In this document: in pieces, positions 9,422-33,065 of the stretch
Position numbering within the stretch: the stretch's first letter is position 1
Layout: each line of letters begins with the position of its first letter
DNA from: a virus
Virus record (IMG/VR): IMGVR_UViG_3300007512_000126
Span: 1-33,065 of that record
DNA length: 33,065 nucleotides
Reading direction: 5' to 3' (one strand)
Notes under the pieces: model-generated
Seen by the model: the letters and a program-made list of their open reading frames with translations, nothing else
Databases searched by the model: none
Told to the model about the DNA's origin: nothing
Program-made: the position numbers and the translations under genes

Positions 9422-9875
9422 AAGTATAATGATTATCGCGGCTTTACTGTTTTCCTTTGCGGCGGAAGCAAAAGTATATTTTAATTCCGCGCCAATGGGT
9501 AAACAACAGATTGATGCAGTAACAGGCTTTTTATATGAAACGATCAAAAACAGACCAGCGGAAATACAAAAAATACATATGGCACAAGCGGCGCGCGCAG
9601 TCGCGTGGTTAAAAAAGCTGCACGAGAAAAAAGAGTCTTATGAAATATTAAGTTTTAAGACAGATCAAGCTAGCTTCATTAGAGCTAGTGTTTTTTATAT
9701 TGCAGAGACAGTAAACTCAAAAGACTCCACAAAGGAAAAGTCTAAAATTTTGATAAATCACTGGACCTCTATAGGCAAGCGCGTCGTCGCAAAATATAAA
9801 GAGAAAAATGGAAAATTAATATCAGGAAAGCTTATCTTAAAGAAGGGTAAAAAAAATGAAGCTAACAAGAGATGA
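9411..9875 (+). CDS. Small secreted (periplasmic) protein of unknown function
   Basis: 154 aa, ATG 9411 with AAAGGAAA upstream and an 11-base overlap with the resolvase gene. Residues 1-20 form a classic signal peptide: Arg/Lys n-region, IMIIAALLFSF core, and AEA cleavage site before Lys21. There is no lipobox and no second membrane helix, so the mature protein of about 134 aa should be released to the periplasm. It is basic and helical (KLHEKKESYEIL, GKRVVAKYKEKNGK near the C-terminus). I do not recognise a family. It overlaps the following gene by 20 bases. A role in host envelope or superinfection control is possible, but nothing in the sequence shows it. Confidence 0.75.
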   Translation: MRIKSIMIIAALLFSFAAEAKVYFNSAPMGKQQIDAVTGFLYETIKNRPAEIQKIHMAQAARAVAWLKKLHEKKESYEILSFKTDQASFIRASVFYIAETVNSKDSTKEKSKILINHWTSIGKRVVAKYKEKNGKLISGKLILKKGKKNEANKR

Positions 9876-10122
9876 TTTAAAAGGGCTGATTGAAGAGCAA
9901 TTAAATGGCGTTTTAAATGAAACTGGCCTAGGCGTACATTCTGACCGAAAAATACAAGAAGATTTACATGACATTCTAACTGAAAGAGGCCTGGATGACG
10001 ATGCAGCTGCTATTATCCTTTCTAATGTTCCGATTCCCGTCCTAAAAGAGTTGCTCCTCATTTTTTCTAGACCTGAGAGCGCTTCTAGTACTTCTGCTTT
10101 TGCTGGTAGTCTAGAAGAATAA
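9856..10122 (+). CDS. Small protein with prohead-cargo-like 22-aa leader
   Basis: 88 aa, ATG 9856 with GAAGGG upstream, overlapping the previous gene by 20 bases. Residues 1-22 follow the pattern M-x-L-T-x3-L-K-x2-I-E-E-Q-L-x-G-x-L-x-E, 13 of 22 positions identical to the N-terminus of the 1071-aa protein at 22337. The leader ends in Leu-Asn-Glu followed by Thr-Gly, which fits the (Leu/Ile)-x-Glu cleavage rule of T4 gp21 protease. Cleavage would leave a mature 66-aa acidic protein (SDRKIQEDLHDILTERGLDDD...). Known biology: T4 internal head proteins are targeted by short N-terminal sequences removed at such sites. Inference: this is a packaged internal head protein. No function can be assigned to the mature part. 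Confidence 0.75.
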   Translation: MKLTRDDLKGLIEEQLNGVLNETGLGVHSDRKIQEDLHDILTERGLDDDAAAIILSNVPIPVLKELLLIFSRPESASSTSAFAGSLEE

Positions 10123-16900: not shown

Positions 16901-18490
16901 TTGGGAAACCAACTTACCAAGAAAGAAATTATGAAAGAGATCATTAAATGTGGTAAGGACCCCGTTTATTTTATCAACAACTTTGCAAGAATTTCTCACC
17001 CACTAGAAGGTCTAATTCCATTTAAAACTTATGATTATCAAGATGACTTGCTTAAATCTTTTGATGATCACCGATTTACAGTTATTCTCAAAGCAAGACA
17101 GCTGGGAATCTCAACAATTACAGCAGCTTATATCGTTTGGATGATGTTGTTTCATCGGGATAAAAACGTCCTTGTTATGGCAACAAAGTACACAACTGCT
17201 TCAAACTTGGTTAAAAAGGTTAAAGCAATGCTGAAAAGTCTACCAGAGTGGATTCAAATTGCAGAAGTTGAGGTCAATAATAGAAATTCTTTTGAACTAA
17301 ACAATGGTTCACAGATTAAAGCGTCTTCAACCTCTGCAGATGCTGGTCGTTCTGAGGCGTTATCTCTTTTGGTAATTGATGAGGCTGCGCACGTTGAGGG
17401 TTTAGAGGAATTGTGGACTGGTTTATATCCCACACTATCAACTGGCGGTAGGTGTATTGCACTTTCAACCCCAAATGGCGTTGGTAATTGGTTCCATAAA
17501 ACATATATTGATGCTGCAGCCGACAAGAGCAACTTCCATCCCATTAAGTTGTTATGGGATGTGCATCCTGATCGCGATCATGATTGGTTCACGCGCGAAA
17601 CAAGAAACATGTCGAGAAGACAAATTGCACAGGAATTAGAGTGCAACTTTAATGCATCTGGAGACACTGTAATACACCCGGATGATATAACCAGAATTGA
17701 TAAACAAATTATGGATCCAAAATATCGTACCGGCTTCGACAGAAACTTTTGGATCTGGGAAGAGTTTAAGCCAGAAAATACATATCTACTATCAGCAGAT
17801 GTGGCGCGCGGCGACGGCGCGGATTATTCTGTTTTTCATATTTTTAAGTTAGAAACTATGGAAATCATTGCAGAATACCAAGGAAAGGTTACTCCTGATA
17901 TGTTTTCTGAGATCGTTTATAACGCAGGAAGAGAATATGGAGAATGTATGGTTGTTGTTGAGAACAATTCGGTTGGATTTTCTGTGATAGAGAAACTAAA
18001 AGAAAAAGCCTACTCAAATGTTTATCATTCAGTTAAATCAACCCATGAATATGTGGACCAATTAACTGCAGAAAGCAGAAGTGGCACAATAGCTGGATTT
18101 ACAACCTCTCTAAAGACGCGCCCCCTTCTAGTTGCTAAGTTTGAAGAGTTTATAAGAAACAAAGTTATAACTATTTATTCTTCGAGACTTAGAGCGGAAT
18201 TAGACATCTTTATTTGGAACAATGGTCGACCAGAAGCACAAAAAGGGTACAACGATGATTTGGTTATGGCCTGTGCTATTGGATGTTGGGTAAGGGATAC
18301 TGCAATTGTTGAAAATCAAAGGGACTTAGAGTATAAAAAAGCCCTTTTAGGCTCTATAATAAAGAGTAACTCTGTTTTGGACACCAGAATTCCCGGAATG
18401 GCCGGACAAAAACACTCTATAGATTTGGAAATGAAAAAGGTCGAAGCAGAAAAGCAATATGAAGAACATTCATGGTTAATAAAAGGATAA
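16901..18490 (+). CDS. 17: Terminase large subunit (T4 gp17-like)
   Basis: 529 aa. The start is TTG 16901, supported by GGGAG 7 bases upstream; the next ATG (16931) has no good ribosome site and would remove ten residues. ATPase domain: Walker A-like KARQLGIST at 64-72, Walker B LLVIDEAAH with Asp160/Glu161, and coupling motif STPNG at 189-193. Nuclease domain: Asp300 in LLSADVARGDGADYS, Glu354 in VVVENNSVGF and Asp452/Asp453 in GYNDDLVMA, the metal ligands of the RNase H-like headful nuclease. The protein translocates concatemeric DNA into the prohead at the portal and cuts it. The portal gene follows after three bases, as in a packaging operon; T4 tail genes 18 and 19 are absent here. Confidence 0.93.
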   Translation: MGNQLTKKEIMKEIIKCGKDPVYFINNFARISHPLEGLIPFKTYDYQDDLLKSFDDHRFTVILKARQLGISTITAAYIVWMMLFHRDKNVLVMATKYTTASNLVKKVKAMLKSLPEWIQIAEVEVNNRNSFELNNGSQIKASSTSADAGRSEALSLLVIDEAAHVEGLEELWTGLYPTLSTGGRCIALSTPNGVGNWFHKTYIDAAADKSNFHPIKLLWDVHPDRDHDWFTRETRNMSRRQIAQELECNFNASGDTVIHPDDITRIDKQIMDPKYRTGFDRNFWIWEEFKPENTYLLSADVARGDGADYSVFHIFKLETMEIIAEYQGKVTPDMFSEIVYNAGREYGECMVVVENNSVGFSVIEKLKEKAYSNVYHSVKSTHEYVDQLTAESRSGTIAGFTTSLKTRPLLVAKFEEFIRNKVITIYSSRLRAELDIFIWNNGRPEAQKGYNDDLVMACAIGCWVRDTAIVENQRDLEYKKALLGSIIKSNSVLDTRIPGMAGQKHSIDLEMKKVEAEKQYEEHSWLIKG

Positions 18491-18493
18491 AAG

Positions 18494-20533
18494 ATGGCAA
18501 CCAGAAATAAAAACCCCAAGGACTCAACATGGCCTCTGTTTAAGAAGCTCACAAGATTGTTTTCTGGGCCGCTGATTAATTACCGCTCTCAGAGCACAAG
18601 ACAACTTTCTAGAAGGCGATTGGATAAATACGCTAGTAGGTTTAAAGATGTTGCCGGTCAGAAATTTCAAAAACTATCCTACAATCCGTTTGAAAATCTT
18701 GCAGCCAATATTATGTCGGCTCAAAACAGAACTCAACGATATGTGGATTTTGATCAAATGGAGTACACACCAGAGATTGCTTCTACACTGGATATTTATG
18801 CAGACGAAATGACTACATCTAATGATCTGAGAAAGATGTTGACCATTAAGTGCTCGAACGAAGAGATTAAAACAATCTTAGAGTCCTTATACTTTAATGT
18901 CCTGAACATTGAGTTTAACATGTTTGGCTGGGCACGAACAATGTGTAAATATGGAGACTTTTTTCTCTACTTGGATATCAACCCTGAAGTTGGCATTGTA
19001 AATGTGGTCGGCCTCCCCACAACAGAAGTCGAAAGACTGGAAGGCGAAGATAAAACAAATCCAAACTATGTCCAGTTTCAGTGGAACACTGGCGGGATAA
19101 CTCTTGAAAACTGGCAGATGGCACACTTTAGAATTTTAGGAAATGATAAATATGCCCCATATGGAACTTCTGTTTTAGAACCAGCAAGAAGAATCTGGCG
19201 CCAATTGACGTTACTTGAGGATGCAATGATGGCTTATCGCATTGTTCGCTCTCCGGAAAGACGCGTATTCTATATTGATGTGGGAAATATTAGTCCATCG
19301 GACGTAGAACAATACATGCAAAAAGCAATCACCTCAATGAAGCGGAATCAAGTTGTAGATCCCGAGACCGGTCGCGTTGATTTGCGTTATAACCCCATGA
19401 GCATTGATGAAGATTACTTTATTCCTGTCCGAGGCTCAGTTCAGTCAACCAGAGTTGAAAGTCTTCCGGGCGGAACTTATACTGGCGACATTGATGATGT
19501 CAAATATTTACGAGATAAACTTTTCTCAGCGCTTAAAATTCCTCAGTCATATCTTTCTAGAGGAGAAGGGGCAGATGAAGATAAGACAACCTTAGCACAA
19601 AAAGATATTAGATTTGCAAGAACAGTTCAAAGATTGCAACGCTCTATCGTTTCTGAACTTGAAAAGATTGGAATTATACAGCTTTATACTCTTGGGTTTA
19701 AGGGGGATGATTTGGTTTCTTTCACCCTTCAGTTAAACAATCCCTCCAAGTTAGCTGAAATGCAAGAGCTAGAACACTGGAGAACTAAATTCGATGCAGC
19801 TGGTGCAGCCACTGAAGGATACTTCAGCAAGCGATGGGTGTTTGAAAAGATTCTTGGAGTATCAGACGAAGAGGCTATTCGTATTCAAAGAGAAATGTTC
19901 TATGACCGAAAATTTGAAACAGCAATGGAAGCAGTTGTGGAAGCTGGAATGGCTCAAATGGCTGGTGCCGCACAAGGCGCAGGGGAACAAATGGGCCTAG
20001 GCGGAGCAGGTGAAACGCCACCCGGAGCACCCCCGGGAGAAGCGGCTCCCGCAGGAGAAGAGGCAGGAGAAGAAGAGCCGCCGCCTGAAGAAGAAGGCGA
20101 AGAAGGTGGGGAAGAAGGTGGCGAAGAAGGTGGGGAATCAGCGCTCCTGGCCGCACCAGAACCTCCGGGAAAAAGAGACGAGGAAGACTGGTATAAAGTT
20201 ACGAAAAAAGATGTTTTTGGCCGCCCCGAGTCTACAACCACTTCTAAATCTAAAGGAAAATGGTATTCACCGGTAACTTATGATAGGCGCGACATGAGCG
20301 CAAGAAAACGACACTATAAAGGGCAGTGGGCTGATGAAGTCGCGAGCAACACTAAAAGAAATCTACATAAAGGAGCTTTGGAACTATATGGTTTAGGGAA
20401 AAATGCCATATTCGAGGAAAAAGAAACTAATTACAAAGAGGCGGAAAGAAAACTTTTAGAATCAAATAAGCAAATTAAAGATCTAGTTAAAGAGCTAGAA
20501 CTAAAGGATGAAGATAATGAGACTGAGGCATAA
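18494..20533 (+). CDS. 20: Portal vertex protein (T4 gp20-like)
   Basis: 679 aa, ATG 18494 with AAAGGAT upstream. The body matches T4-type portal proteins: YTPEIASTLDIYADEMTTSND, MFGWARTMCKYGDFFLYLDI, APYGTSVLEPARRIWRQLTLLEDAMMAYRI VRSPERRVFYID split across residues 215-270, then KIPQSYLSRGEGADEDKTTLAQKDIRFA at 350-380. It forms the dodecameric ring through which gp17 pumps DNA and to which the tail attaches. After about residue 480 there is an unusual low-complexity tail rich in Gly, Glu, Ala and Pro, containing a threefold EEGG repeat, then a basic charged end of about 110 residues. The T4 portal is 524 aa, so about 150 residues are extra. The last 17 bases overlap the next gene. Confidence 0.93.
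   Translation: MATRNKNPKDSTWPLFKKLTRLFSGPLINYRSQSTRQLSRRRLDKYASRFKDVAGQKFQKLSYNPFENLAANIMSAQNRTQRYVDFDQMEYTPEIASTLDIYADEMTTSNDLRKMLTIKCSNEEIKTILESLYFNVLNIEFNMFGWARTMCKYGDFFLYLDINPEVGIVNVVGLPTTEVERLEGEDKTNPNYVQFQWNTGGITLENWQMAHFRILGNDKYAPYGTSVLEPARRIWRQLTLLEDAMMAYRIVRSPERRVFYIDVGNISPSDVEQYMQKAITSMKRNQVVDPETGRVDLRYNPMSIDEDYFIPVRGSVQSTRVESLPGGTYTGDIDDVKYLRDKLFSALKIPQSYLSRGEGADEDKTTLAQKDIRFARTVQRLQRSIVSELEKIGIIQLYTLGFKGDDLVSFTLQLNNPSKLAEMQELEHWRTKFDAAGAATEGYFSKRWVFEKILGVSDEEAIRIQREMFYDRKFETAMEAVVEAGMAQMAGAAQGAGEQMGLGGAGETPPGAPPGEAAPAGEEAGEEEPPPEEEGEEGGEEGGEEGGESALLAAPEPPGKRDEEDWYKVTKKDVFGRPESTTTSKSKGKWYSPVTYDRRDMSARKRHYKGQWADEVASNTKRNLHKGALELYGLGKNAIFEEKETNYKEAERKLLESNKQIKDLVKELELKDEDNETEA
20099..20134 (+). 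repeat. Three tandem 12-base units in the portal gene
   Basis: GAAGAAGGTGGG, GAAGAAGGTGGC, GAAGAAGGTGGG in direct tandem, each encoding EEGG, inside the acidic low-complexity tail of the portal protein. Copy number could vary by slippage between relatives. Confidence 0.9.
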
Positions 20534-21338
20534 CAAAAAAAGAAATACTGCTTTTCTGTATGAGGCTTTAATAAGAGAAGTTGCCAAGAGTGTCGTTAAC
20601 AAAGATGAGAAGAAGAAGCAACAAGCTCTCGGTTTAGTTAAAGAATACTTTATGTCGTCATCTGAAATTGCAAAAGAACTACAACTTTACAAGTGCCTTT
20701 TAGAAACAACGGACATGGACATTTACACCGCAGAGAAATTAATTCAGGAAACGAAAAAGGATTATGATGAGCTAGATCATGAACAAGTTTTTATGGAACA
20801 AAGCAGGATAATTTCATTTGTTAACAAAAACTTGTCAAGAGATGTGTTTTCTAATTTTGTTCCAAACTATAAAGACTATGCTACTATTGCACAAATCTTT
20901 AGTAAGAAAACCGCCCCTAAGAAGCGCGTCCTATTAGAAGAGTCTCTGTTAAAGAAGATGACACACGAAGAAGAAGAGTTGAGAGAAGAGTTAGTGCCGA
21001 TTACAAATTTGATCTATAAAACGTTTGTCGAAAAATATAACAAAGAATATGGAGAGCAACTTTTAGAAGAGCAGAGGAACTTGTTAACCAATTATATTTT
21101 GTCGTTTTCAAACAATGGACTAAACCTTAAATTATATTTAAATGAAGAAATTACTAGAATAAAAAACGTTCTGCACGAATCACTAGAGATAGAAGAGATT
21201 AAAAATGATAAACTAATGACAGAAAAAACAAATAAAGTTTTAGGCGTCATTGACACTTTTAGAGAAAAACCGCTTACACAAGATATGGTAAAACAAATAT
21301 TAAAGATACAAAATTTAACACACGAGATTACAAAATAA
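20517..21338 (+). CDS. Probable prohead-core-associated protein next to portal
   Basis: 273 aa. The frame opens at ATG 20508, but ATG 20517 has AAGGA 8 bases upstream and gives the N-terminus MRLRHNKKRNTAFLYEALIRE. The protein is almost all helical and charged. In T4 the core genes 67 and 68 sit between genes 20 and 21, and this gene occupies that place. Its second half holds many Leu-x-Glu sites (LLEES, LREEL, LLEEQ, LNEEI, LHESL), the cleavage rule of T4 prohead protease, as would be expected for a core protein digested during maturation. No homology to gp67 or gp68 is visible by eye. It overlaps the next gene by one base. Confidence 0.75.
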   Translation: MRLRHNKKRNTAFLYEALIREVAKSVVNKDEKKKQQALGLVKEYFMSSSEIAKELQLYKCLLETTDMDIYTAEKLIQETKKDYDELDHEQVFMEQSRIISFVNKNLSRDVFSNFVPNYKDYATIAQIFSKKTAPKKRVLLEESLLKKMTHEEEELREELVPITNLIYKTFVEKYNKEYGEQLLEEQRNLLTNYILSFSNNGLNLKLYLNEEITRIKNVLHESLEIEEIKNDKLMTEKTNKVLGVIDTFREKPLTQDMVKQILKIQNLTHEITK

Positions 21339-21928
21339 TGGCAGATATTGAAGTTACAATTGGAACGCAAGACGAGCAGCTACCGGGAAGACCTCCTGTA
21401 GAAGCGGAAGAAAAACCAGATGCACAAATAACACTGGATATGAGAAAAACACTAGATGGGAGTATTGCGATATACGATCATCCTGAAATTGATATTGTTG
21501 TTATGCCTCATATGCTTAAGGTGATCACTTTTGCAAAAGATGAAATGGGCGATCATATTTATGGAGCACAGAGTAGACTGTTCAACTATCTTGCCAAAAA
21601 GGGTGTTATTGTATATGACTCCGTACAAGGTGGAAATTTATATGGTTCATTGGAAGCGAATCTGCCACCTCAATTTGAGGAAGGTGTCGATCCGGTGCAG
21701 GTTGTGCTTTTTGTCCTTGACAAGTTTATTAAAGAAGAGGCGCCTCACTATTCAAAGGTACAGGACTATGAAAAAGACTTGAACGATTGGTGGCTAGAAC
21801 CAGACGATGACACTTCGACCGATCTAGACTGGGCTACCAAAACACATAAGGCCAGGAAGGGCGTACAAAATAAATGGACAGGCGGAGTTGCTCGCTATAG
21901 CATTTATAATAATACGTATAGGGGATAA
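21338..21928 (+). CDS. Conserved unknown protein in the head cluster
   Basis: 196 aa; ATG 21338 shares its A with the preceding TAA, so translation is probably coupled. After an acidic, Pro-rich N-terminus comes LDMRKTLDGSIAIYDHPEIDIVVMP, then AKDEMGDHIYGAQSRLFNYLAKKGVIVYDSVQGGNLYGSLEA, which reads as a compact alpha/beta domain, then KFIKEEAPHY and an acidic DDDTSTDLDW tail. No catalytic motif, signal or membrane segment. It stays next to the portal and core genes, so a role in head assembly is likely, but the sequence does not say which. Product otherwise unrecognised. Confidence 0.75.
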   Translation: MADIEVTIGTQDEQLPGRPPVEAEEKPDAQITLDMRKTLDGSIAIYDHPEIDIVVMPHMLKVITFAKDEMGDHIYGAQSRLFNYLAKKGVIVYDSVQGGNLYGSLEANLPPQFEEGVDPVQVVLFVLDKFIKEEAPHYSKVQDYEKDLNDWWLEPDDDTSTDLDWATKTHKARKGVQNKWTGGVARYSIYNNTYRG

Positions 21929-21932
21929 GAGT

Positions 21933-22340
21933 GTGAACGTGCCACTTTCAAAAAACTTTAAGAAATCAGAATTTAAATGTAGAGATGGTACAGATGTACC
22001 AGATGAACTGATGCCTAATTTGTTAGAGCTTGTTGAAAACCTTCAGATCATACGCGATCATATTGGCAAGCCAATACATGTGATTTCTGGATATAGAACT
22101 CCTAAATATAATAGAAGGATTGGTGGAGCTAGAAAATCACAGCACATGAAAGCAAAAGCTGCTGATATTATTATTCGCGGAATGAGCCCGGTAGAAGTTC
22201 GAGCCATCATTATTAACTTAATAAAAGAAAAGAAAATTAAGAAAGGCGGAGTAGGCCTTTATAAAAGCTTTGTTCATTACGATGTTAGAGGGTGGAACGC
22301 GCGTTGGAAAGGTAAAGGCGTTAAGGACTATAGACCATGA
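21933..22340 (+). CDS. Peptidase M15-type endolysin (D,D- or L,D-carboxypeptidase fold)
   Basis: 135 aa from GTG 21933; the frame also runs back to TTG 21888 inside the previous gene, but that gives an implausible extension. GTG 21939 is a second possible start. Conserved M15_3-type features: VPLSKNFKKSEFKC at the N-terminus, VISGYRTPKYNRRIGGARKSQH, then zinc ligands His71, Asp78 (SQHMKAKAAD) and His115 (SFVHYDVRG). It should cleave peptide cross-links or stems of peptidoglycan. No signal peptide or membrane segment is present, so export would need the holin-like protein at 14677. A virion-bound lysozyme role is possible because it sits in the head cluster. It overlaps the next gene by ATGA. 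Confidence 0.85.
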   Translation: MNVPLSKNFKKSEFKCRDGTDVPDELMPNLLELVENLQIIRDHIGKPIHVISGYRTPKYNRRIGGARKSQHMKAKAADIIIRGMSPVEVRAIIINLIKEKKIKKGGVGLYKSFVHYDVRGWNARWKGKGVKDYRP

Positions 22341-22402
22341 ATTTAACTAAATCCCAACTTAAACAAATGATTGAAGAACAACTTGAAGGGCTTTTGAGTG
22401 AG
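22337..22402 (+). repeat. Targeting/cleavage motif copy 1 (N-terminal leader)
   Basis: Encodes residues 1-22, ending LLSE before RRPRRG. Bases 22350-22378 are an exact 29-base direct copy of 23151-23179. The layout equals the leader of the 88-aa protein at 9856. Confidence 0.85.
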
Positions 22403-25400
22403 CGAAGACCTCGAAGAGGCATTGAAACAACATCGGACACACCAGTGCTGCCAAAAATTGAACCTCGCGCCGCGGAAGCTGAAGGGTCTTTATCCACACC
22501 AGAAGTTAAAACAGATGTTGCGCATGCGGCCAAAAAACCAGACCCATATGCTGAGCCAAAATGGGATCCAGAGGCAATGCAACGTCACCACTCCGAAGCG
22601 GCATTGTATGATGATCTGCGTCGATGGAGAGGTAAAGGTCAATTTAAACATCATGCGCCATCTGCGTTGAGCACGGGAGAAATTGAGGGTGTTAAAGCCC
22701 GGTGGCATGCGGGAATGAAGGACATGTTGAAATCGAACCTAACCGATGCGCAGAAACGAAAAGTCTTCCGCATGGCTATGAGCAAAGCAGGACAAATTGG
22801 TGGCGAAGGCCATTGGAACCTCCAGCGATCTCTGGGGGATAAAGGTGGAGAACGTTATCATCGCCTCTCTTCAGTACCATTTTCTAATCTTGTAACTGGT
22901 CTTTCTGGGGGTCAAAGAAAGGAGCTTCATAAAAATTTAGCGAAATCTGGCTATTGGAAAAAATTACACCCCAGCAGCCCAATAAGACAAGACTTTGAAA
23001 AATCTGCATATTATAAGAAGCCTACAAAAAGACGTCGGCGCAAAAAGAAAAAACCGGTCCAGAAATTCCAATCGTTCGTTGCAACTGATGCAAAAACCGG
23101 CAAACCGATAACGCGTACGCAAGCAAGGAAAATGAGCACCCCCGTACGCGAATCCCAACTTAAACAAATGATTGAAGAAGAGGTAAATTTACTTTTAGAG
23201 GTCTACGAGCGCGGCATGCTGACGCCCTTCGATTCCAGGATGCCTACGCGACAAGCGCGACAAACGCGACAAGGCCCGACAGATACTCTCTCCCCTTCTG
23301 AGTGGAAAGAAAACTGGTTACCTGATTTTTTAAACCCGGATACCTATGATATTGAAAGTTCGTATGCACCAACATGGGGCTTTCAACAAGGTGCAGAAAA
23401 ATGGGAGGATGATCCTAGCATAGAAGAACTAATATATAAGTCTGGCATGCCAATACCCGAGGAAAGTGACCATATCAGTCAGCTTGATAAATCATTAGGC
23501 GACTTTATCGATGACGAGGGCTCACAAGAACTGTTTTTAATGGGCCCGGGCACCCTCTCGAAACATGTTCGTCGAGCGCTCACCGATCTCTATAGACAGC
23601 CACGTTCCGGGCTCTGGCGCAAGCACGGACAATTCGGCAAAGGCGCCACGCATCGGGGCCTCAAATATGGCCACCTCGCAGGGTTGGGTTTGCTTCCATA
23701 CGACGTTGCAAAAGAGATTGAGAACTGGGTTGATATCAATAGACGCTCACAGGGTTACGATCAGTGGGACCTTGAAAATAAACTAGGACTCGGCAAACTA
23801 TATATGTCACCAGAGCAAGCAGAAAAAGAAACGGAGCTTTGGCACCTTCTACAGCAATACGCTGGGCTATCCCCAGAACTAGGCAAAAAAGAAACAGAAC
23901 ATGACTTCTTGCAAAGCCAAGAACACGAGTTATCACCAGATATGACGCTGTATGAAGGAAAGAATGTAAAACTTAAACAAATAATTGAAGAGCAACTTGA
24001 AGGTTTTTTAAATGAGGCGCGCCCCCCACGTGGCCCAGAAGGCCCGGAGCGCCGCCCGCGGGTGTACCCATGGGATCTTTTGCCCCCTGGATATCGAATC
24101 TGGAGCCCAGAAGACAATCCAGAACCACCACCGCCCCTGCCACACCCTCTGGATCCGGATTATATAGCGGAATCTGAAGAGGACTCTGAGACGACAACGG
24201 AAAACTTAACCAAACAAGATCTTAAAGAAGCAATTGAAGAAATGCTCACAGCTGAATTAAATTCAAAAACGCGATCTGCCAAAATTTCGCCCCGAAAAAA
24301 AACACCAGATCTCAAACAAATAATTGAAGAAGAAGTTGATTATGTTTTGAGCGAGAAAAGAAGAAAGCGAAAGCAAAGCGAAGCTGAAAAGATTTTACAA
24401 ATGCATGATAAAGCGAAAAAAGCTGATGATAAAAATAAGTTAGTGCGCAAGCTTAAAGGCTTACCGGCGCAGGATCGCGGCAAAGGAATTGCAGACCCAC
24501 CATCTCGTGCAGAAAAAGTACGACGCTCGCGAGTTGTGAATAAAAGAAACAAAGAAAGAGAAGCAGAAGCAGAAGCTAGAAAGCTTAACCCCGACGATTC
24601 AAAAGAAAAAAAACCAAAAACCAAACCCAGAAAAAGAATGAAGTTCTCACCACCGACTGGAGACTATAAGGCACCAGATAAAGACATTGGTAAAAAAATG
24701 GGGCAGGTAATTAAAAATAAAAAAATGAGAAAAGGAGAAAAAGAAGCACCATTGCCCGGTGCCTCTAATCGCAAGAAATTAGAAAAAAGAAAAGCAGAAA
24801 AGAAAACACCAACGAACAAAGAAAGAAAAGCAACAAAATGGACAACTGCTAAAAAGATGTCCAAAGAAGATCATGAAGCCTATGGCCGCACTGGAAAAAA
24901 AGGTTCTTTAGCCAGAAGAGCAAAAACAAATAAACCGCACCCTAAAAGTATCAAGAGAATAGAACAATATAAATCAGACAAAGGCGCCGCTGATGCTGCC
25001 AAAGCAAAAAGGCTAAAATATGGAGAAGACGAGCTTGGGGCAATGAAAAAAAGATACAAACAGCTTCCAATATCTATACGCTATAAATTTGATGCAGCAG
25101 CGAAAGGAGATCCAAAGGCCATTGACTTTATGAAAAGGTGGGATAAAGCCAGCAAAGGCGTATCGGCCACCGGAAAATCTGGCATAGGCGGTAGAAAGAT
25201 TCCGCTACTGGGAAAGATCATCAACGCGGTTACTCCTGAGTATGGCGGCGCATATCCTCAGATCTTTCAAGACATTGCAAGAAAAAAAGAGATCATGAAA
25301 TATAGGAACACTCCTCGCGGCAGAGAGCTTGGGCCCAAACCACAAGTACAAAAGCCACCCAAAAAACCACCAGAAGTAGAGCCCAAGGCTTATAAAGGGA

Positions 25401-25552
25401 ACTTTAAACAATCCGGAGCCTCTAAAGCAACAACAAATATTGCTGGAAAGGAAGCTGATAAACTTTATGGTGTTGGAACAGCAAACAAACCAAAATCAAA
25501 GAAAAAACCTAAGAATGTAACTGCTGTTGGAAAAAAAGACGTTTGGGTATAA
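22337..25552 (+). CDS. Polyprotein-like internal head protein with repeated cleavage/targeting motifs
   Basis: 1071 aa, ATG in an ATGA overlap with the endolysin. Five copies of a helical motif (LKQ-I-I-E-E-x-L-x3-L-x-E) occur, ending at residues 22, 288, 560, 642 and 673. Four end in Leu-x-Glu (LSE, LLE, LNE, LSE), the T4 gp21 cleavage rule; the copy at 642 is degenerate (LNS). Cutting there would give pieces of 266, 272, 113 and 398 aa. The two first pieces are nearly equal in length; the third is Pro-rich and acidic; the last is dominated by Lys and Arg (KKPKTKPRKRMKF and many similar runs), as expected for a DNA-associated internal protein. No enzyme motif was recognised. The protease gene lies 440 bases downstream. 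Existence of the gene is certain; the polyprotein role is inference. Confidence 0.8.
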   Translation: MNLTKSQLKQMIEEQLEGLLSERRPRRGIETTSDTPVLPKIEPRAAEAEGSLSTPEVKTDVAHAAKKPDPYAEPKWDPEAMQRHHSEAALYDDLRRWRGKGQFKHHAPSALSTGEIEGVKARWHAGMKDMLKSNLTDAQKRKVFRMAMSKAGQIGGEGHWNLQRSLGDKGGERYHRLSSVPFSNLVTGLSGGQRKELHKNLAKSGYWKKLHPSSPIRQDFEKSAYYKKPTKRRRRKKKKPVQKFQSFVATDAKTGKPITRTQARKMSTPVRESQLKQMIEEEVNLLLEVYERGMLTPFDSRMPTRQARQTRQGPTDTLSPSEWKENWLPDFLNPDTYDIESSYAPTWGFQQGAEKWEDDPSIEELIYKSGMPIPEESDHISQLDKSLGDFIDDEGSQELFLMGPGTLSKHVRRALTDLYRQPRSGLWRKHGQFGKGATHRGLKYGHLAGLGLLPYDVAKEIENWVDINRRSQGYDQWDLENKLGLGKLYMSPEQAEKETELWHLLQQYAGLSPELGKKETEHDFLQSQEHELSPDMTLYEGKNVKLKQIIEEQLEGFLNEARPPRGPEGPERRPRVYPWDLLPPGYRIWSPEDNPEPPPPLPHPLDPDYIAESEEDSETTTENLTKQDLKEAIEEMLTAELNSKTRSAKISPRKKTPDLKQIIEEEVDYVLSEKRRKRKQSEAEKILQMHDKAKKADDKNKLVRKLKGLPAQDRGKGIADPPSRAEKVRRSRVVNKRNKEREAEAEARKLNPDDSKEKKPKTKPRKRMKFSPPTGDYKAPDKDIGKKMGQVIKNKKMRKGEKEAPLPGASNRKKLEKRKAEKKTPTNKERKATKWTTAKKMSKEDHEAYGRTGKKGSLARRAKTNKPHPKSIKRIEQYKSDKGAADAAKAKRLKYGEDELGAMKKRYKQLPISIRYKFDAAAKGDPKAIDFMKRWDKASKGVSATGKSGIGGRKIPLLGKIINAVTPEYGGAYPQIFQDIARKKEIMKYRNTPRGRELGPKPQVQKPPKKPPEVEPKAYKGNFKQSGASKATTNIAGKEADKLYGVGTANKPKSKKKPKNVTAVGKKDVWV
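23151..23200 (+). repeat. Targeting/cleavage motif copy 2
   Basis: Residues 273-288, SQLKQMIEEEVNLLLE, followed by VYERG. Its first 29 bases (23151-23179) are identical to 22350-22378, indicating recent duplication of the motif inside the gene. Confidence 0.85.
23972..24016 (+). repeat. Targeting/cleavage motif copy 3
   Basis: Residues 546-560, LKQIIEEQLEGFLNE, followed by ARPPRG. Both the motif and the following R-P-x-R-G resemble copy 1, which is followed by RRPRRG. Confidence 0.85.
24206..24262 (+). repeat. Targeting motif copy 4, degenerate
   Basis: Residues 624-642, LTKQDLKEAIEEMLTAELN. It keeps the L-T-x3-L-K-x2-I-E-E core but ends L-N-S, so it lacks the Leu-x-Glu end; it may no longer be cut. 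Confidence 0.65.
24311..24355 (+). repeat. Targeting/cleavage motif copy 5
   Basis: Residues 659-673, LKQIIEEEVDYVLSE, followed directly by the basic stretch KRRKRKQ. Cleavage here would release the 398-aa Lys/Arg-rich C-terminal piece. Confidence 0.85.
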
Positions 25553-25572: not shown

Positions 25573-25902
25573 GTGGAATTAATATATTTTATTTTAACTG
25601 CGTATGGTTTAACGCAGATACTTATCTTTGGCTCAATATTCGATAAAGTCAGGCCCCCAAAAAAATGGTTAAATGGTTTCGGAAAACTATTTCATTGCCC
25701 TATGTGTATGGGTTTCTGGGTAGGTGTGCTTTTATTCGGAATAAACAAGTGGACGGAACTATTTAGTTATGACTATACTTTAGCCAATGCGCTTATTTTA
25801 GGGTGGCTTAGTTCTGGAACTTGTTATCTTTTGGGCGTATTGATTAATGACTTTGGGTTCAAAGTGACATTTAAAAACGAGGGAGATTGTAATGTTGACT
25901 AA
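25573..25902 (+). CDS. Small membrane protein with CPMC motif (DUF1360-like)
   Basis: 109 aa from GTG 25573, required because the ATG at 25571 reads only three codons; AAGGAGG lies 4 bases upstream. Three hydrophobic helices are visible: ELIYFILTAYGLTQILIFG (2-20), GFWVGVLLFGI (47-57) and ANALILGWLSSGTCYLLGVLI (71-91). Between them is FHCPMCMGFWVG with Cys42 and Cys45, a pattern of the DUF1360 group of small membrane proteins (recognised by eye only). Function is unknown; a redox or metal-binding Cys pair at the membrane surface is possible. It lies between the polyprotein and protease genes, and its last 11 bases overlap a possible 36-aa gene. Confidence 0.75.
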   Translation: MELIYFILTAYGLTQILIFGSIFDKVRPPKKWLNGFGKLFHCPMCMGFWVGVLLFGINKWTELFSYDYTLANALILGWLSSGTCYLLGVLINDFGFKVTFKNEGDCNVD

Positions 25903-26002
25903 GAGATGGAAGCTACAGCCAGTTCGACGGTGCTGCAGCGGTTCTAGATTCGTGCGGGTTGCGCCCGCACTTTTTATTAAAGAGAGGATAAGAGATGTCT
26001 AA
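25892..26002 (+). CDS. Possible 36-aa basic micro-protein
   Basis: ATG 25892 follows AGGGAG at good spacing and runs to TAA 26000-26002. The product is MLTKRWKLQPVRRCCSG then SRFVRVAPALFIKERIRDV: short, basic, with a Cys-Cys pair. It overlaps the membrane-protein gene by 11 bases in the form ATG-N5-TAA, exactly as the secure gene pairs at 9411 and 15478 do, and it overlaps the protease start by 8 bases. It would fill an otherwise odd 92-base gap. Against it, bases 25952-25976 form a terminator-like hairpin that could itself explain the composition. I favour a real gene only slightly. Confidence 0.45.
   Translation: MLTKRWKLQPVRRCCSGSRFVRVAPALFIKERIRDV
25952..25976 (+). terminator. Terminator-like hairpin before the protease gene
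   Basis: GTGCGGG (25952-25958) pairs with CCCGCAC (25964-25970) around TTGCG, followed by five T. It fits an intrinsic terminator or attenuator between the polyprotein/membrane-protein genes and gp21. It lies inside the possible 36-aa gene, so one of the two readings may be only partly right. Confidence 0.65.
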
Positions 26003-26600
26003 AAAACTTCTAAGAGAATTTTATGAACTTTGCCCTGATGGAGTGTGCAAAGATCTATTAACAGAAGAAGAAAAGAAACTTGTTAATAAAGGTGTACTTT
26101 TTCTTTCTGGCGTCATGCAAAAGTGTGATACAGAAAATGGAAACGGCAGAGTATACCCTAAAGATATCCTCTCTAGAGAAGTTAAGAATTATAAAAAAAT
26201 TGTTGACGAAAGAAGATCTTTAGGTGAATTAGACCACCCAGATGATTCTGTTGTGAACTTAAAGAACGCTTCACATCTTGTAACTGATGTTTGGTTGGAT
26301 GGCGATTGCGTAATGGGCAAAATTCAGGTTTTAAACACTCCATCTGGAAAAACACTTAAGGCACTTGTTGAAGCAAATGTAAAAGTTGGTATATCATCTA
26401 GAGGTTTAGGTTCAACCGAACAAAAAAATGGCAAAACATATGTGAAAAGTGACTTTCAGTTGATTTGTTTTGACATTGTTCAGGAGCCTTCTACCAGTGA
26501 TGCATATATGGTTAGCGAGTCTATGGAACGTAGTCTTAAAAAGGTTTTCACAAAGGGCGATTGTATTAATCGCGCATTAAACGAGATATTAGAGAGTTAA
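25995..26600 (+). CDS. 21: Prohead core protease (T4 gp21-like)
   Basis: 201 aa, ATG 25995 with GAGAGGATAAG upstream. The motifs of the T4-type prohead serine protease family are present: GELDHP with His81, VGISSRG with Ser134/Ser135, and FDIVQEPS with Asp160. The early stretch GVLFLSGVMQKCDTENGNGRVYP is also typical. In T4 the enzyme sits in the scaffold core, digests scaffold, and trims capsid and internal proteins after (Leu/Ile)-x-Glu. The same rule is visible in the polyprotein, in the 88-aa protein, in the scaffold and in gp23 in this window. The C-terminus itself (ALNEILES) contains a Leu-Asn-Glu, possibly an autoprocessing site. The next gene begins 1 base after its stop. Confidence 0.93.
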   Translation: MSKKLLREFYELCPDGVCKDLLTEEEKKLVNKGVLFLSGVMQKCDTENGNGRVYPKDILSREVKNYKKIVDERRSLGELDHPDDSVVNLKNASHLVTDVWLDGDCVMGKIQVLNTPSGKTLKALVEANVKVGISSRGLGSTEQKNGKTYVKSDFQLICFDIVQEPSTSDAYMVSESMERSLKKVFTKGDCINRALNEILES

Positions 26601-26601
26601 T

Positions 26602-27066
26602 ATGAAAAGAAGCGAATTGAAAAAAATATTAAAGCCTTTAATCAAAGAGTGTATAAAAGAGGCAATCTTTGAAGAAGGTGTGCTTTCTGGAATAATTACA
26701 GAAGTCATGAGAAGCACCCAGCCTCAACAAACAATAACAAGCACACAAAGTAGTGTAAATTTAGAAGAAGAAAAGAGAGCACTTTTGGCCCTTGAAGAAG
26801 AAAAAGCCGAGAGAGCACAACTTTTAGAGCAGCGTCATAGAAGAGAGAAAGAAAAAAGAAGAAAACTACTAGACGCTACAGGGTTTGACAATGTTGATGT
26901 GTTCAGCGGCACAGAGGCCCTCTCAGATAGTGGTCAGATAAATGAAAGCGCAGGTGGCTATTCTGGCCCTCTTTCTGGAGTGGCGACAGGTGATGCAGGA
27001 GTAGATATAAGCGGCATAATGTCCCTTGGTGGATCCAAGAATTGGAAAAAATTAGCAGGTAGTTGA
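26602..27066 (+). CDS. Coiled-coil protein with targeting-like N-terminus, head cluster
   Basis: 154 aa, ATG 26602 one base after the gp21 stop. The N-terminus MKRSELKKILKPLIKECIKEAI followed by FEEGVLSGIITEV is an amphipathic helix resembling, loosely, the LKQIIEE motif of the polyprotein and the 88-aa leader; possible cleavage points are IFE and ITE. Residues 50-95 are a highly charged coiled coil (LEEEKRALLALEEEKAERAQLLEQRHRREKEKRRK). The C-terminal third is Gly/Ser-rich (GGYSGPLSGVATGDAGVDISGIMSLGG). It could be a core protein, a small scaffold partner or packaged cargo. It ends in TGATG, overlapping the bS21 start by one base, so the two are probably translated together. Confidence 0.75.
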   Translation: MKRSELKKILKPLIKECIKEAIFEEGVLSGIITEVMRSTQPQQTITSTQSSVNLEEEKRALLALEEEKAERAQLLEQRHRREKEKRRKLLDATGFDNVDVFSGTEALSDSGQINESAGGYSGPLSGVATGDAGVDISGIMSLGGSKNWKKLAGS

Positions 27067-28364: not shown

Positions 28365-30977
28365 ATGTCTTTGAATACATGGAAATATAATAATAATCAA
28401 ATTAAATTAACAGGTACGATGCACTTATCTGCAAGTGCCTATGTTAACTGGGGGGCAGATTCTGCCGAAACCGGTTCGAGCGGCTACGGAATTAGAGATA
28501 ACGGAGGTCAGTTACAGTTTAAAAACTTAACAGGCTCATGGTCTAATCTTGTTGGTGACGATCTTGCGGGTATCGGTTTGGCTGCAAACTACATTACCAC
28601 GGGCGACGCTGCAGTCAGCGTGGCCACTAGTGCTGGGAATATCACGATTGATGCTCAAGGCACCGATACTGATATTATCTTTAAAGGCACCGATGATGGC
28701 TCTGATATCACAATGCTTACTTTGGATGGTTCCGAAGCAGGCGCAGCGACTTTTAACGGTCCAATTACTTGTGCCACTAGCTTTACTATTGGTTCGGCAG
28801 CAATGTCAGAAGCCGATTTAGAACAGCTTGATGGCATTACTGCTGGTACTGCAGCTGCTTCTAAAGCAGTTGTTCTTGACGCTAGTAAAAATATTGCAAC
28901 TATTGGTACTGTTGGGTGTGGTGCGATCACATCTACTGGCACTTCTACTTTTGGTGGGGTCAATCCTGCGTCTGCAGATGGTGCGGCTCTTGGTGGCGCT
29001 TCTGCTGAGTGGTCTGATCTTTATTTGGCAAATGGCGCTAAAATTTACTTCGGTGATGATCAGGAAGTTACATTAACACACTCGCACGACAGCGGTCTTG
29101 TGTTGACACATTCGGGTTCGAGCGATCCTGTTTTGGAGCTTTTAAACTCGAATGCTGACGCAACCGGTGCGACTCTTAAATTGCACATGTCAAGTGCTTC
29201 TCCTGCTGATGCTGACGTTCTGGGTAACGTTGACTTTGCAGGGTACGATTCGGCTGGTAATGAACATACCTATGCGCGAATCTTGGCGAAGAGTGACGAT
29301 GTTACTACTGGCGAAGAAGAAGGTAGTTTAGAATTTTATGTTGCTGAGCTTGACGGTACTTTATCTAAAGGTATGGACATAAAAGGTTTGGCTTCCGATG
29401 GCAACATCACTGTGGATATTTCCACTCACGATGGTTCTGCCGGTGGTTTAAAGTTGGGAGGCACGTTGGTAACCGCTACTGCTGCTGAACTTAACTTTAT
29501 GGATGGCGGCTCAACCATTTCTACAGTGACTGTTGCTGATGGTGACGGTGTTGTTTTTAATGACGGTACAGCCATGAAGCAAGTTACGGTTCAATCGTTG
29601 GCTGCATATTTTGATGATGAGATTACGGCAATGCCCAACCTTGTTACAACTGCAGCAACTACGGTCGGTACCCTTAACTCAGGTGCTATTTCTAGTGGCT
29701 TCGGCAATATTGACAATGGTTCTAGTACGCTTGATACTGGTGTTGCAACTGTTGCTAGTTTGACTTGTACTGCAGCTGCCACTTTCGGCGGCGGCTACGG
29801 TGACACCGGTACTACTATTAGTACTGCAGGTGTAATTACATCTAATGGTGCATGTACTGTTGGTGGAGTTCTTAAAACGGATGACACTACAAATGCAACT
29901 AGCACCACTGATGGTTCTTTGCAGACAGATGGTGGATTGAGTGTTGCTTTGGATGTTATTGTTGGTGATGATGTATATTTGTTGAGCGATTCGGCCGTCC
30001 TCGGCTTAGGCGCAGGCAAAGATGCTACACTTACTCACGATGGTACAACAGGTCTCACAATTGCTGCTAATCCAATTACGTTGGATTCCGGCGCGGGACT
30101 TGTTTTAGATGCTGCCAATGGTGAGTTCGAACTCAAGGTTGCAGGCACTGAAATATTTATGTTTGAGCATAGCAATTCTGGCGATGTAACTCTTCTTAAC
30201 GACACTTCGGACAAGGACATGATCTTTAAGATTACTGACGGTGGTTCCGAGACAGAGGTTTTCCGACTTGATGGTGATGTTTCATCGTTGTTAATGGCTG
30301 GTACCAAGAAGATTACGTTTGGTGCAGCAGCCGCCTATATCAACCATGATGGTACTGATTTGCAGCTTGTAGATGATGCCGATATTAATATCAAGCCTGC
30401 AGTTGACTTCTTGGTTGATGCTGGTGGAGATGTTATCCTCGATGCAGGCGGCGGAGCCTTTGACCTCAAAGTTGCAGGCACTGAAGTTTTCATGTTTGAA
30501 CATGATAATTCTGGTGACATGACCCTGCTGACGGCGGTTTCAAATAAAGATATGATCTTTAAGGTAAATGACGGTGGTTCCGAGACAGAGGTTTTCCGAC
30601 TTGATGGTGATGTATCAGCGATGACGATGGCTTCTGGCAAACGATTACAGTTTGCTGATACTGGCGAGTACATTGTTAGTGATGGTACAAACCTGACTAT
30701 TGAATCTGGTGGAAGTATTCTTATGGGTGCTACTGTTTCTCCAGACAGCAATGGTGGACAGGATTTGGGCGCAAGTGGTGCAAAGTGGGACGCTGTATAC
30801 GCTAACAACGTGTATACGGGCGACCTTCACTTGAAAAATGAGCGCGGCGACTGGTCTGTTATAGAGGAATCTGATTATTTGACCCTTCGTCACAACACTT
30901 CTGGAAAGCGCTTTAAGCTTCTCATGGAAGAATTGAGCGATGGAGAATTTGGTCCGGGCAACGATGGTGTAATGTAA
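28365..30977 (+). CDS. Long repetitive fibre protein in the head cluster
   Basis: 870 aa, ATG 28365 with GGGGGGA upstream. The sequence is dominated by Gly, Ala, Thr, Asp, Ser and Val in beta-strand patterns, typical of trimeric fibres. Near the C-terminus a module of 111 residues occurs twice (AGTEIFMFEHSNSGDVTLL ... DKDMIFKITDGGSETEVFRLDGD and AGTEVFMFEHDNSGDMTLL ... NKDMIFKVNDGGSETEVFRLDGD), then the shared end domain with the 27822 protein. Codon use is rich in GGT, GCT, GAT and ACT, unlike most neighbours, but similar to gp23, suggesting strong expression. It could be a tail fibre or, since it sits between bS21 and scaffold and is followed by a terminator, a capsid-attached head fibre. 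Adhesion is the likely job. Confidence 0.8.
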   Translation: MSLNTWKYNNNQIKLTGTMHLSASAYVNWGADSAETGSSGYGIRDNGGQLQFKNLTGSWSNLVGDDLAGIGLAANYITTGDAAVSVATSAGNITIDAQGTDTDIIFKGTDDGSDITMLTLDGSEAGAATFNGPITCATSFTIGSAAMSEADLEQLDGITAGTAAASKAVVLDASKNIATIGTVGCGAITSTGTSTFGGVNPASADGAALGGASAEWSDLYLANGAKIYFGDDQEVTLTHSHDSGLVLTHSGSSDPVLELLNSNADATGATLKLHMSSASPADADVLGNVDFAGYDSAGNEHTYARILAKSDDVTTGEEEGSLEFYVAELDGTLSKGMDIKGLASDGNITVDISTHDGSAGGLKLGGTLVTATAAELNFMDGGSTISTVTVADGDGVVFNDGTAMKQVTVQSLAAYFDDEITAMPNLVTTAATTVGTLNSGAISSGFGNIDNGSSTLDTGVATVASLTCTAAATFGGGYGDTGTTISTAGVITSNGACTVGGVLKTDDTTNATSTTDGSLQTDGGLSVALDVIVGDDVYLLSDSAVLGLGAGKDATLTHDGTTGLTIAANPITLDSGAGLVLDAANGEFELKVAGTEIFMFEHSNSGDVTLLNDTSDKDMIFKITDGGSETEVFRLDGDVSSLLMAGTKKITFGAAAAYINHDGTDLQLVDDADINIKPAVDFLVDAGGDVILDAGGGAFDLKVAGTEVFMFEHDNSGDMTLLTAVSNKDMIFKVNDGGSETEVFRLDGDVSAMTMASGKRLQFADTGEYIVSDGTNLTIESGGSILMGATVSPDSNGGQDLGASGAKWDAVYANNVYTGDLHLKNERGDWSVIEESDYLTLRHNTSGKRFKLLMEELSDGEFGPGNDGVM
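30236..30280 (+). repeat. Exact 45-base direct repeat, copy 1
   Basis: Identical to 30569-30613, 333 bases (111 codons) downstream in the same frame. Encodes DGGSETEVFRLDGD. Perfect DNA identity inside a diverged protein repeat suggests recent conversion between the two modules. Confidence 0.9.
30569..30613 (+). repeat. Exact 45-base direct repeat, copy 2
   Basis: Second copy of the repeat at 30236-30280, in the second 111-residue module of the fibre protein. Confidence 0.9.
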
Positions 30978-31106: not shown

Positions 31107-32345
31107 ATGTCTTCCATGCTTGAACAAGCAATCGTTGATGCAGAAGCTTTAAAAGAAGCTGCGATTAGGAATGCAGAATCCACACTAATTGAGAAATACT
31201 CAATAGACATTAAAAATGCCGTTAATCACTTGTTAGAGCAAGGCCCCCCACCAGAAGGTGGCGAAGAGGAGATGATGGCCGCAATGCTAGGCGGCCTAGG
31301 CGGAGGCGATCCAATGGCCGATCCTGCAGCTGCAGCAGGTCCAACCGAAACCCCTGAATTTATGGGAGATATACCTCCAGCGCACGGCGATGGTGAAAAA
31401 TTGTGCCCATGTCCAGAAGAGGACCAGCCAATAACTATAGATCTAGATCAACTTGGCGCAGCCCTTCAGTCAGCAGAAGCAGAAGGCGATATGGGCATGC
31501 CAATGGACGCTGCAGGAACTGCCGCAGAGATCATGGGAGAAGAAGGTCCCCCGGAAGAACAATACTTAGTGCAAGAGTCACTTTTAATAGACATTTTAGG
31601 AGAAGGTTACGATATGAGTGAAGTTAATGAAGATACCCAGCAAGAGGTCTTAGAAAACGAAGATGCCCTTGAAGAAGAATACGATTTGAACGAGTTGTTA
31701 GATCTTGAGGAAGACGAAAATCTAGAAGAGGCCGATGAATCATTTGTCAACACTCAAGATACGACATCTGCAAGCGCTGTAGAAACAGACATCAGAACAG
31801 AAACCGGTGCAGATGTAGGGACAATGGAAGAGCAACTTCAAGCGTATCACCACCACTATAATGAACTTTACGAACAGCATGCTCGACTTTTTGAATCGCA
31901 TGCGCAATACGAACAAGAATATAAAAATTTATATGGCCATTGGACAAATGGTCAAGAAGCTTTACAAAAGCTTCAAGAAGAGAATGAGAAGTATAAAGGT
32001 CTATTTGTAGAAATGAAAGAAAAGCTCAATGAAGCAAATCTTCAGAATGCAAAGCTTTTATACACAAACCGTGTTTTAGACAGTATCTCCCTGAATGAGC
32101 GACAAAAAGATAAAATTGTTGAAGCTGTGCAAAAAGCCGGTTCCGTTGAAGAAGCAAAAACTATTTTTGAAACCCTTCAAAGTGCAGTGGTAGGCACAAA
32201 CTCTAATAAGAGAGAGCCTAAATCCCTAAACGAAGCAGTACAAAAACGTTCTTCAGCATTCTTGCCTCGCAAAGAGGCGAAATCCGATCCGCGTTTAGTG
32301 GATAGGATGCAAAAGTTAGCTGGCATCAAAAACAACGATGCTTAA
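31107..32345 (+). CDS. 22: Prohead scaffolding core protein (T4 gp22-like)
   Basis: 412 aa, ATG 31107 with AAAGGAGC upstream. Placement between gp21 and gp23 and overall composition fit T4 gp22. The N-terminal helix (MLEQAIVDAEALKEAAIRNAESTLIEKY) is followed by a Gly/Met/Ala/Pro-rich acidic segment (about 45-150, including CPCPEED), a strongly acidic region with many (Leu/Ile)-x-Glu sites (ILGEG, VLENE, LLDLEE, NLEEADE), then a coiled coil and the end LNERQKDKIVEAVQKAGSVEEAKTIFETLQ typical of T4-type scaffolds. It forms the core around which gp23 assembles and is digested by gp21. The extra acidic middle makes it longer than T4 gp22 (269 aa). The capsid gene follows after 21 bases. Confidence 0.9.
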   Translation: MSSMLEQAIVDAEALKEAAIRNAESTLIEKYSIDIKNAVNHLLEQGPPPEGGEEEMMAAMLGGLGGGDPMADPAAAAGPTETPEFMGDIPPAHGDGEKLCPCPEEDQPITIDLDQLGAALQSAEAEGDMGMPMDAAGTAAEIMGEEGPPEEQYLVQESLLIDILGEGYDMSEVNEDTQQEVLENEDALEEEYDLNELLDLEEDENLEEADESFVNTQDTTSASAVETDIRTETGADVGTMEEQLQAYHHHYNELYEQHARLFESHAQYEQEYKNLYGHWTNGQEALQKLQEENEKYKGLFVEMKEKLNEANLQNAKLLYTNRVLDSISLNERQKDKIVEAVQKAGSVEEAKTIFETLQSAVVGTNSNKREPKSLNEAVQKRSSAFLPRKEAKSDPRLVDRMQKLAGIKNNDA

Positions 32346-32366: not shown

Positions 32367-33065
32367 ATGTCTGTTTTAGAAAAACTAACTGAAGGAATTG
32401 TTGATCGGAACCTCGCAAAAGAAGGCAACGCTCTACTTAGCAAGTGGGAGAAAACTGGTCTTCTTGAGGGAATCAACAAGGACGATAACCGTAGCGGTAT
32501 GGCGCGTCTCCTCGAAAACCAAGCCAAAGAGCTTCTTCGTGAAGCTAGCTCAATGGCCGCTGGTGATGTGGAAGGCTTTGCTGCCGTTGCATTTCCGATT
32601 GTTCGCCGTGTATTCGGTGGACTAATTGCTAACGATCTCGTTAGCGTTCAGCCCATGAGCTTACCCTCTGGACTGATCTTTTTCCTAGACTTTACCTATG
32701 AGGCTGGTCGTCACGGTGTAGATGGTGGCGACTCTGTTTACGGTGGTGGCGTTGTTGCCACACAGTTGACCGGCGGTGTTACTGACATCAGTGAAACTGG
32801 TGGTGGTTTTTATAACCTTGCCAATGCTTACTCTTCACCGACTGGTTCTGTTGTGCCTAGTGGCACAGATGCTAATGATGCTACCAACGGCGGTCTTGTG
32901 GTTGAGGCAGTGCAGGTTGCATCCAAACTTGTAAGTGCTTTAACGGAAGAAGAAAAGAAGTTTATTCAATTCGACCCGGATCTTCTGGCCAATAACGCAG
33001 ATGATACGGTTCTGGTACTGGACACTGATTTTCAAAAAGCGGACGATCTCAATCTGGACATGCTT
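32367..33065 (+). CDS. 23: Major capsid protein (T4 gp23-like), 3' end outside window
   Basis: ATG 32367 with AAAGGAGG at good spacing; 233 codons are present and the frame is open at the right edge. The translated N-terminus MSVLEKLTEGIVDRNLAKEG, then RLLENQAKELLREASSMAAG and NDLVSVQPMSLPSGLIFFLDF, is of gp23 type. In T4 the first 65 residues are removed by gp21; here the best matching site is Leu57-Arg58-Glu59 before Ala60-Ser-Ser, giving a propeptide of 59 residues. Codons are strongly GGT, CGT, CTT and GCT, as expected for the most abundant protein. It follows the scaffold gene and is probably co-transcribed with it from the promoter region near 31049. Confidence 0.93.
   Translation, partial: MSVLEKLTEGIVDRNLAKEGNALLSKWEKTGLLEGINKDDNRSGMARLLENQAKELLREASSMAAGDVEGFAAVAFPIVRRVFGGLIANDLVSVQPMSLPSGLIFFLDFTYEAGRHGVDGGDSVYGGGVVATQLTGGVTDISETGGGFYNLANAYSSPTGSVVPSGTDANDATNGGLVVEAVQVASKLVSALTEEEKKFIQFDPDLLANNADDTVLVLDTDFQKADDLNLDML

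Follow-up and report, generated by a model that had tools for sequence, protein, structure and literature searches.

What is a single phage protein doing with five copies of one helix? The question is raised by P0001, our name for a predicted multi-tag precursor encoded by an intact open reading frame (ORF) of 1071 residues at 22337..25552, on the plus strand of the IMG/VR virus record IMGVR_UViG_3300007512_000126. All 33,065 bases of this record (the window) were analyzed. We consider it probable that P0001 is a precursor packaged into the phage head, with tandem targeting and cleavage tags that are cut by a prohead protease of the S77 family; it is most likely the five-tag extreme of a system in which proteins carry one to three tags. 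This answer builds on the identity of the tags, their spread among other phages, the link between tagged contigs and the S77 protease, the enrichment of Leu-x-Glu (L-x-E) at tag ends, and the use of internal tags as junctions in other phages.

We begin with the copies themselves. A preliminary description of this DNA had counted five, and the count holds: four are strong and one has decayed. Each spans about 22 residues, with the core Leu at residues 8, 275, 546, 629, and 659 and the cores LKQMIEE, LKQMIEE, LKQIIEE, LKEAIEE, and LKQIIEE, in that order. Copy 1 (22337..22402, MNLTKSQLKQMIEEQLEGLLSE/RR; slashes mark predicted cuts, and all features given with two dots lie on the plus strand) is N-terminal and ends in an L-x-E that is in register, i.e., at tag positions 20–22 (LSE22). 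Copies 3 (23951..24016, YEGKNVKLKQIIEEQLEGFLNE/AR, LNE560) and 5 (24290..24355, PRKKTPDLKQIIEEEVDYVLSE/KR, LSE673) are also in register; in copy 2 (23138..23200, TPVRESQLKQMIEEEVNLLLE/VY), the motif falls one residue early (LLE 286–288). Copy 4 (24200..24265, ENLTKQDLKEAIEEMLTAELNS), the decayed one, retains the NLTK of a start-type tag and ends in LNS, without an L-x-E site. Four copies thus end in L-x-E, as had been claimed, and the exact 29-base repeat reported for two copies, AATCCCAACTTAAACAAATGATTGAAGAA, is common to copies 1 (22350-22378) and 2 (23151-23179).

The tags were scored with a 12-column matrix built only from the tags of other phages. Copies 1–5 reached 24.2, 24.3, 18.5, 7.8, and 19.3 bits, respectively; in 2000 control shuffles, the best single site scored 14.9 bits, and four sites above 5 bits occurred in 0/2000. 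A frame error, or a fusion produced by frame errors, is unlikely because the ORF is base-identical, with zero differences, in a second IMG/VR contig (3300008954_000167, our L002). That near-identical contig was the sole match when the whole ORF and each of its segments were searched. P0001 had no match in Pfam (no domain at E<=1), in PHROG, or among isolate phages, and PDB returned only weak matches without evident meaning. The exact DNA pattern of the tag matched one contig of a metagenome-assembled genome.

Is the helix peculiar to P0001? The preliminary description had proposed a search for the motif in related phage genomes, and there it proved to be the N-terminal tag of hundreds of otherwise unrelated ORFs, in contigs of marine T4-like phages, with the consensus MKITKSQLKQIIKEELExxLxE. 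A start residue opens 327 of 334 tags (305 M and 22 V), and matches above 10 bits are almost all on the coding strand (494 plus vs. 3 minus). When 109 tagged proteins were aligned, they had the tag in common and nothing else (mean column identity, 6%). Large contigs hold from 2 to 19 tagged ORFs, about 10 as a rule, and Pfam recognizes few of the proteins: pentapeptide repeats, a ParB-like nuclease, and some weak matches. The helix is therefore a tag, and its ordinary single-tag form is also present in P0001's own genome, in an 88-residue ORF (9856..10122, MKLTRDDLKGLIEEQLNGVLNE/T) whose N-terminal tag ends LNE/T. This ORF adjoins the primase gene and, judged by its tag, likely encodes a packaged protein from outside the head cluster. 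A weaker tag-like start, MNINSDEFNKIIKEEVDRAF, was seen in a short ORF at 14865-15080.

Does the tag travel with a head protease? Two sets of contigs, one retrieved with the tag as the sole query (n = 44) and one with a random 15-mer (n = 19), were searched for Peptidase_S77. A gp21-type S77 protease was found on 27/44 tag-selected contigs and 1/19 random ones (Fisher p = 2e-5), in a contrast that may partly reflect habitat, as the random set was small and not habitat-matched. Twelve of the 17 S77-negative tag contigs also lacked the T4 portal, and the other five stop next to it or at most a few hundred bases away. A search of the S77-negative contigs for phrog_207 gave no match, but the controls were unmatched too. 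The genome that encodes P0001 itself has the gp21 (S77) protease, a T4-type portal, and a capsid protein.

The ends of the tags point the same way. In a set of 391 N-terminal tags, 29% have [LI]xE with the Leu at tag position 20, compared with 1.0% per position downstream; the motif is found in 0% at position 18, 10% at 19, and 3% at 21. Tags ending in a site of the gp21 type (L/I-x-E) thus exist, copies 1, 2, 3, and 5 of P0001 among them. For internal tag cores, an in-register [LIVMFY]xE was found in 11/21 cases in tagged ORFs vs. 11/127 in untagged ones (p = 9e-6), with the reservation that about half of the 11 come from one family and are not all independent. The specificity expected of the S77 protease is, to judge from aligned sequences, visible in its best-known substrate: near the N-terminus of the capsid protein, L57-(R/K)-E59 is kept in nearly all aligned relatives, with only the middle residue varying, some 38 residues before an invariant QPM. 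In the window, the 5' part of the gp23-like major capsid gene (32367..33065) carries this conserved propeptide site as LRE/A.

These figures also bear on the idea that the helix is a docking or dimerization tag unrelated to the head and never cut, its L-x-E being the mere composition of a Glu-rich amphipathic helix. About half of the N-terminal tags lack [LI]xE, and in several tag-rich contigs the recovered piece is devoid of an S77 gene, both of which would suit this idea. We nevertheless regard it as improbable: the L-x-E enrichment is specific to position, tagged genes are located inside the head cluster, and the association with S77 is strong, most of the S77-negative contigs either missing the head module or stopping near the portal.

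Does any other protein carry more than one tag? A combined scan returned 46 ORFs with two or more, of which P0001 ranked first with four strong copies; two candidates had three tags, and all of the others had two. The one studied most closely is a two-tag family (L205–L236) whose first ~110 residues are conserved and consist of a tag, a conserved acidic stretch, and a second tag. Upstream of the second tag, 91/91 pairs of members are related; downstream, 16/78 are, and the downstream parts fall into four unrelated groups. Because the upstream part is conserved and the downstream part is swapped, we regard internal tags as module junctions. The ~110-residue tag-spacer-tag module would, by its sequence pattern, be a portable packaging leader.

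Cleavage at the four L-x-E tags of P0001 would divide it into the pieces of 266, 272, 113, and 398 residues that had been claimed. Predicted product 1 (22403..23200, residues 23–288, 30.3 kDa) has an isoelectric point (pI) of 10.3 and no L-x-E between tags. Product 2 (23201..24016, residues 289–560, 31.4 kDa, pI 4.9) and product 3 (24017..24355, residues 561–673, 13.0 kDa, pI 4.6), the latter proline-rich and including the decayed tag 4, are acidic. Product 4 (24356..25552, residues 674–1071, 44.7 kDa, pI 10.4) is 30% Lys plus Arg and again has no L-x-E; the preliminary description had recognized it as very basic, and the first piece proves to be basic as well. The non-tag L-x-E sites of P0001 are confined to the acidic segments 2 and 3. 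In the two basic segments, there are 0 between tags vs. 3.1 expected, weakly fewer (p = 0.04), a scarcity in keeping with these segments being surviving products.

From these properties, we infer the following course of docking, cleavage, and packaging. Each 22-residue amphipathic helix would act as a T4 capsid-targeting sequence does, attaching P0001 to the prohead core while the head is being assembled. Once the shell has closed, the S77 prohead protease would cut behind the Leu-x-Glu of tags 1, 2, 3, and 5, yielding separate pieces of ~30, 31, 13, and 45 kDa. The two basic pieces would most likely remain alongside the DNA, perhaps to be ejected into the host. The acidic segments may be either surviving products or long propeptides, as in phage SPN3US.

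The latter option leads to a different account, in which P0001 delivers one cargo behind a long multi-tag propeptide: tags 1–3 and the intervening segments would be degraded, the basic C-terminal 398 residues would be packaged, and the extra tags would strengthen docking. There is precedent in the head proteins of SPN3US, which have propeptides of 111–130 residues with several cuts (PMC5694885, PMC7411985, PMC10052503). Moreover, the conserved acidic inter-tag stretch of the two-tag family resembles a long propeptide before a swapped cargo, and segments 2 and 3 of P0001 are acidic and the sole holders of non-tag L-x-E. On the other hand, segment 1, with its 266 residues, pI of 10.3, and freedom from L-x-E, is unlike a disposable propeptide, and a propeptide of 673 residues would lie far above the lengths reported for SPN3US. 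On balance, we judge this account rather unlikely. A fuller version of our own reading is that P0001 is a true cargo polyprotein: its tandem tags would bring in four or more head proteins at a fixed ratio, each freed by a cut at its tag, and it would be the most extreme case of a general system by which hundreds of orphan proteins reach the heads of marine T4-like phages. This fuller version we put forward tentatively. The boundaries in P0001 lie at tags, and modules are swapped at an internal tag in another family; the modules of P0001 are without relatives. The earlier proposal of several head proteins from one gene, each with a targeting helix, therefore fares unevenly: comparison strongly supports the tag, and no free tagged gene equivalent to any P0001 segment was present in the data searched.

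Several points weigh against our interpretation of P0001 as a head-packaged, protease-cut precursor. An [LI]xE near the end is present in 174/391 N-terminal tags and absent from 217/391; because about half lack it, tag and cut site are separable. The Glu- and Leu-rich composition of the helix by itself inflates the frequency of L-x-E, but it cannot account for the exact register. In the two-tag family, 14 of 25 distinct members match the internal pattern and 11 have no clear internal tag, and the strict in-register L-x-E is kept in only 10/25; the non-strict ends are variants such as YSE, LDD, and IIQEEYYIYMIE. The upstream part of this family could also be a long propeptide. No relative of any P0001 segment was found anywhere searched, so the segments count as putative independent cargo. 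Finally, AlphaFold models of two segments were of low confidence (mean predicted local distance difference test scores of 39.5 and 54.9) and poor except for the helical tags.

How might such a gene have arisen? Copy 4 keeps NLTK without a Met, copies 1 and 2 share their 29 bases, and internal copies mostly lack a Met with a ribosome site; from these features, we consider it probable that genes with tags of their own were fused or that the tag was duplicated. We also considered whether separate products could be made by internal translation initiation. Copy 2 is preceded by an ATG at residue 266, but the AAGGAAA that adjoins this ATG on its upstream side is too near for a good ribosome site; the ATG at residue 536, before copy 3, has no ribosome site, and copies 4 and 5 have no ATG nearby. 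Internal initiation is thus unlikely for copies 3–5, where an ATG with a ribosome site is missing, and less so for copy 2.

The genomic setting of P0001 was also scrutinized. The gene order is terminase (16901-18490), T4-type portal (gp20; 18494..20533, Portal_T4 5e-82), SegE-like GIY-YIG gene, a 196-residue gene, M15 peptidase, P0001, DUF1360 gene, and S77 protease, and the same order is kept in relatives, which were fetched by the protease. The presumed cutter is a prohead core protease of the T4 gp21 family (Peptidase_S77; 25995..26600; Pfam 1.7e-30; T4 gp21 structure 5jbl, 6.4e-18). The preliminary description had placed the protease just downstream of P0001; it lies close by but is not the next gene, as one small conserved gene (25573..25902, DUF1360/phrog_781) intervenes. 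The slot that P0001 occupies, from the 196-residue gene to the protease, is variable: it is empty in 30/74 relatives' loci and holds extra ORFs in 44/74, and 23 of these 44 include a tagged protein. Since the slot is variable and frequently holds tagged genes, P0001 is an accessory gene.

This slot bears on whether P0001 could instead be part of the prohead core or scaffold, of the gp67/gp68/gp22 kind, shredded by the protease in maturation. In T4, gp67 and gp68 are located between portal and protease, the very position of P0001. In addition, gp21 cuts gp22, gp67, and gp68 into several fragments (PMC9026906). However, because the slot is empty in 30/74 relatives, P0001 is not a conserved core part, and better scaffold candidates lie downstream: an acidic, scaffold-like, L-x-E-rich protein of 412 residues (31107-32345) and a 154-residue protein (26602-27066). 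Their L-x-E densities are 3.9 and 5.2 (8 sites) per 100 residues, respectively, vs. 1.5 for P0001. We thus consider a core or scaffold role highly improbable.

Do known systems resemble the tagged precursor that we favor? In T4, gp21 cuts after L/I-x-E, and targeting propeptides of 10–19 residues bind the core and are then removed by gp21 (PMC9026906). Like T4 IPI-III and Alt (PMC9026906), the system described here has a short N-terminal sequence on unrelated proteins with an L/I-x-E end, a protease of the gp21 family encoded within the same head cluster, and basic cargo. It differs in that the tag is a longer, distinct helix of 22 residues, is found on far more proteins, and occurs five times in one ORF, whereas T4 has one per protein. 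The likeness appears to be one of design, compared by description, and the tags may be viewed as a variant of the T4 capsid-targeting kind. The giant phages SPN3US and phiKZ (PMC5694885, PMC10052503) also have several protease sites per head precursor and ejected inner-head proteins; unlike P0001, they have single long propeptides, no tandem shared tag has been described for them, and their protease is MEROPS S80. P1 DarB (PMC9024508) has an N-terminal capsid-targeting signal, and its 30 N-terminal residues are enough to carry a foreign protein into the capsid; in contrast to the P0001 tags, those of the Dar proteins have no common consensus reported and are not tandem. The polyvalent proteins of phages and conjugative elements (PMC5512222) are also long single ORFs with several activities delivered with DNA, some processed before packaging. 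They are defined by several recognizable enzymatic domains and have no repeated tags described, whereas P0001 has no Pfam domain and does not fall into this class. The open-access literature, to which our search was confined (subscription journals and preprints lay outside its scope), yielded no account of this tag or of targeting sequences in tandem in tailed phages, which agrees with the preliminary description, whose author was not aware of a T4-like phage described with such a polyprotein.

If our reading is correct, the 15-residue core picks out those orphan genes of marine T4-like phages that encode virion cargo, most of them lacking Pfam matches, and the tag predicts proteins that enter the host alongside the DNA. 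It would also follow that tags can be chained, a strategy for packaging and stoichiometry and a model from nature for filling phage heads with several proteins.

Other features of the head cluster were observed along the way. The portal has a tag-like helix at its C-terminus in the window and in L010, L031, L060, L075, and L076 (VRNLISELETK and IKDLVKELEL are examples), which may be a site of docking or cleavage. The SegE-like GIY-YIG gene (20508-21338), between portal and protease, matched 73 ORFs in relatives' loci and seems to belong permanently to the head cluster, unlike a stray homing nuclease. The M15 peptidase or endolysin-like gene (21888-22340) directly precedes P0001, and its family is absent from 9/10 relatives' records searched; it may have arrived together with P0001. 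The 154-residue gene, directly after the protease, matched 61 ORFs of relatives and has a tag-like N-terminus; its product is a candidate core protein. Lastly, an ORF of 870 residues (28365-30977) contains an internal repeat of ~198 bases with 78% identity, at 30126-30654.

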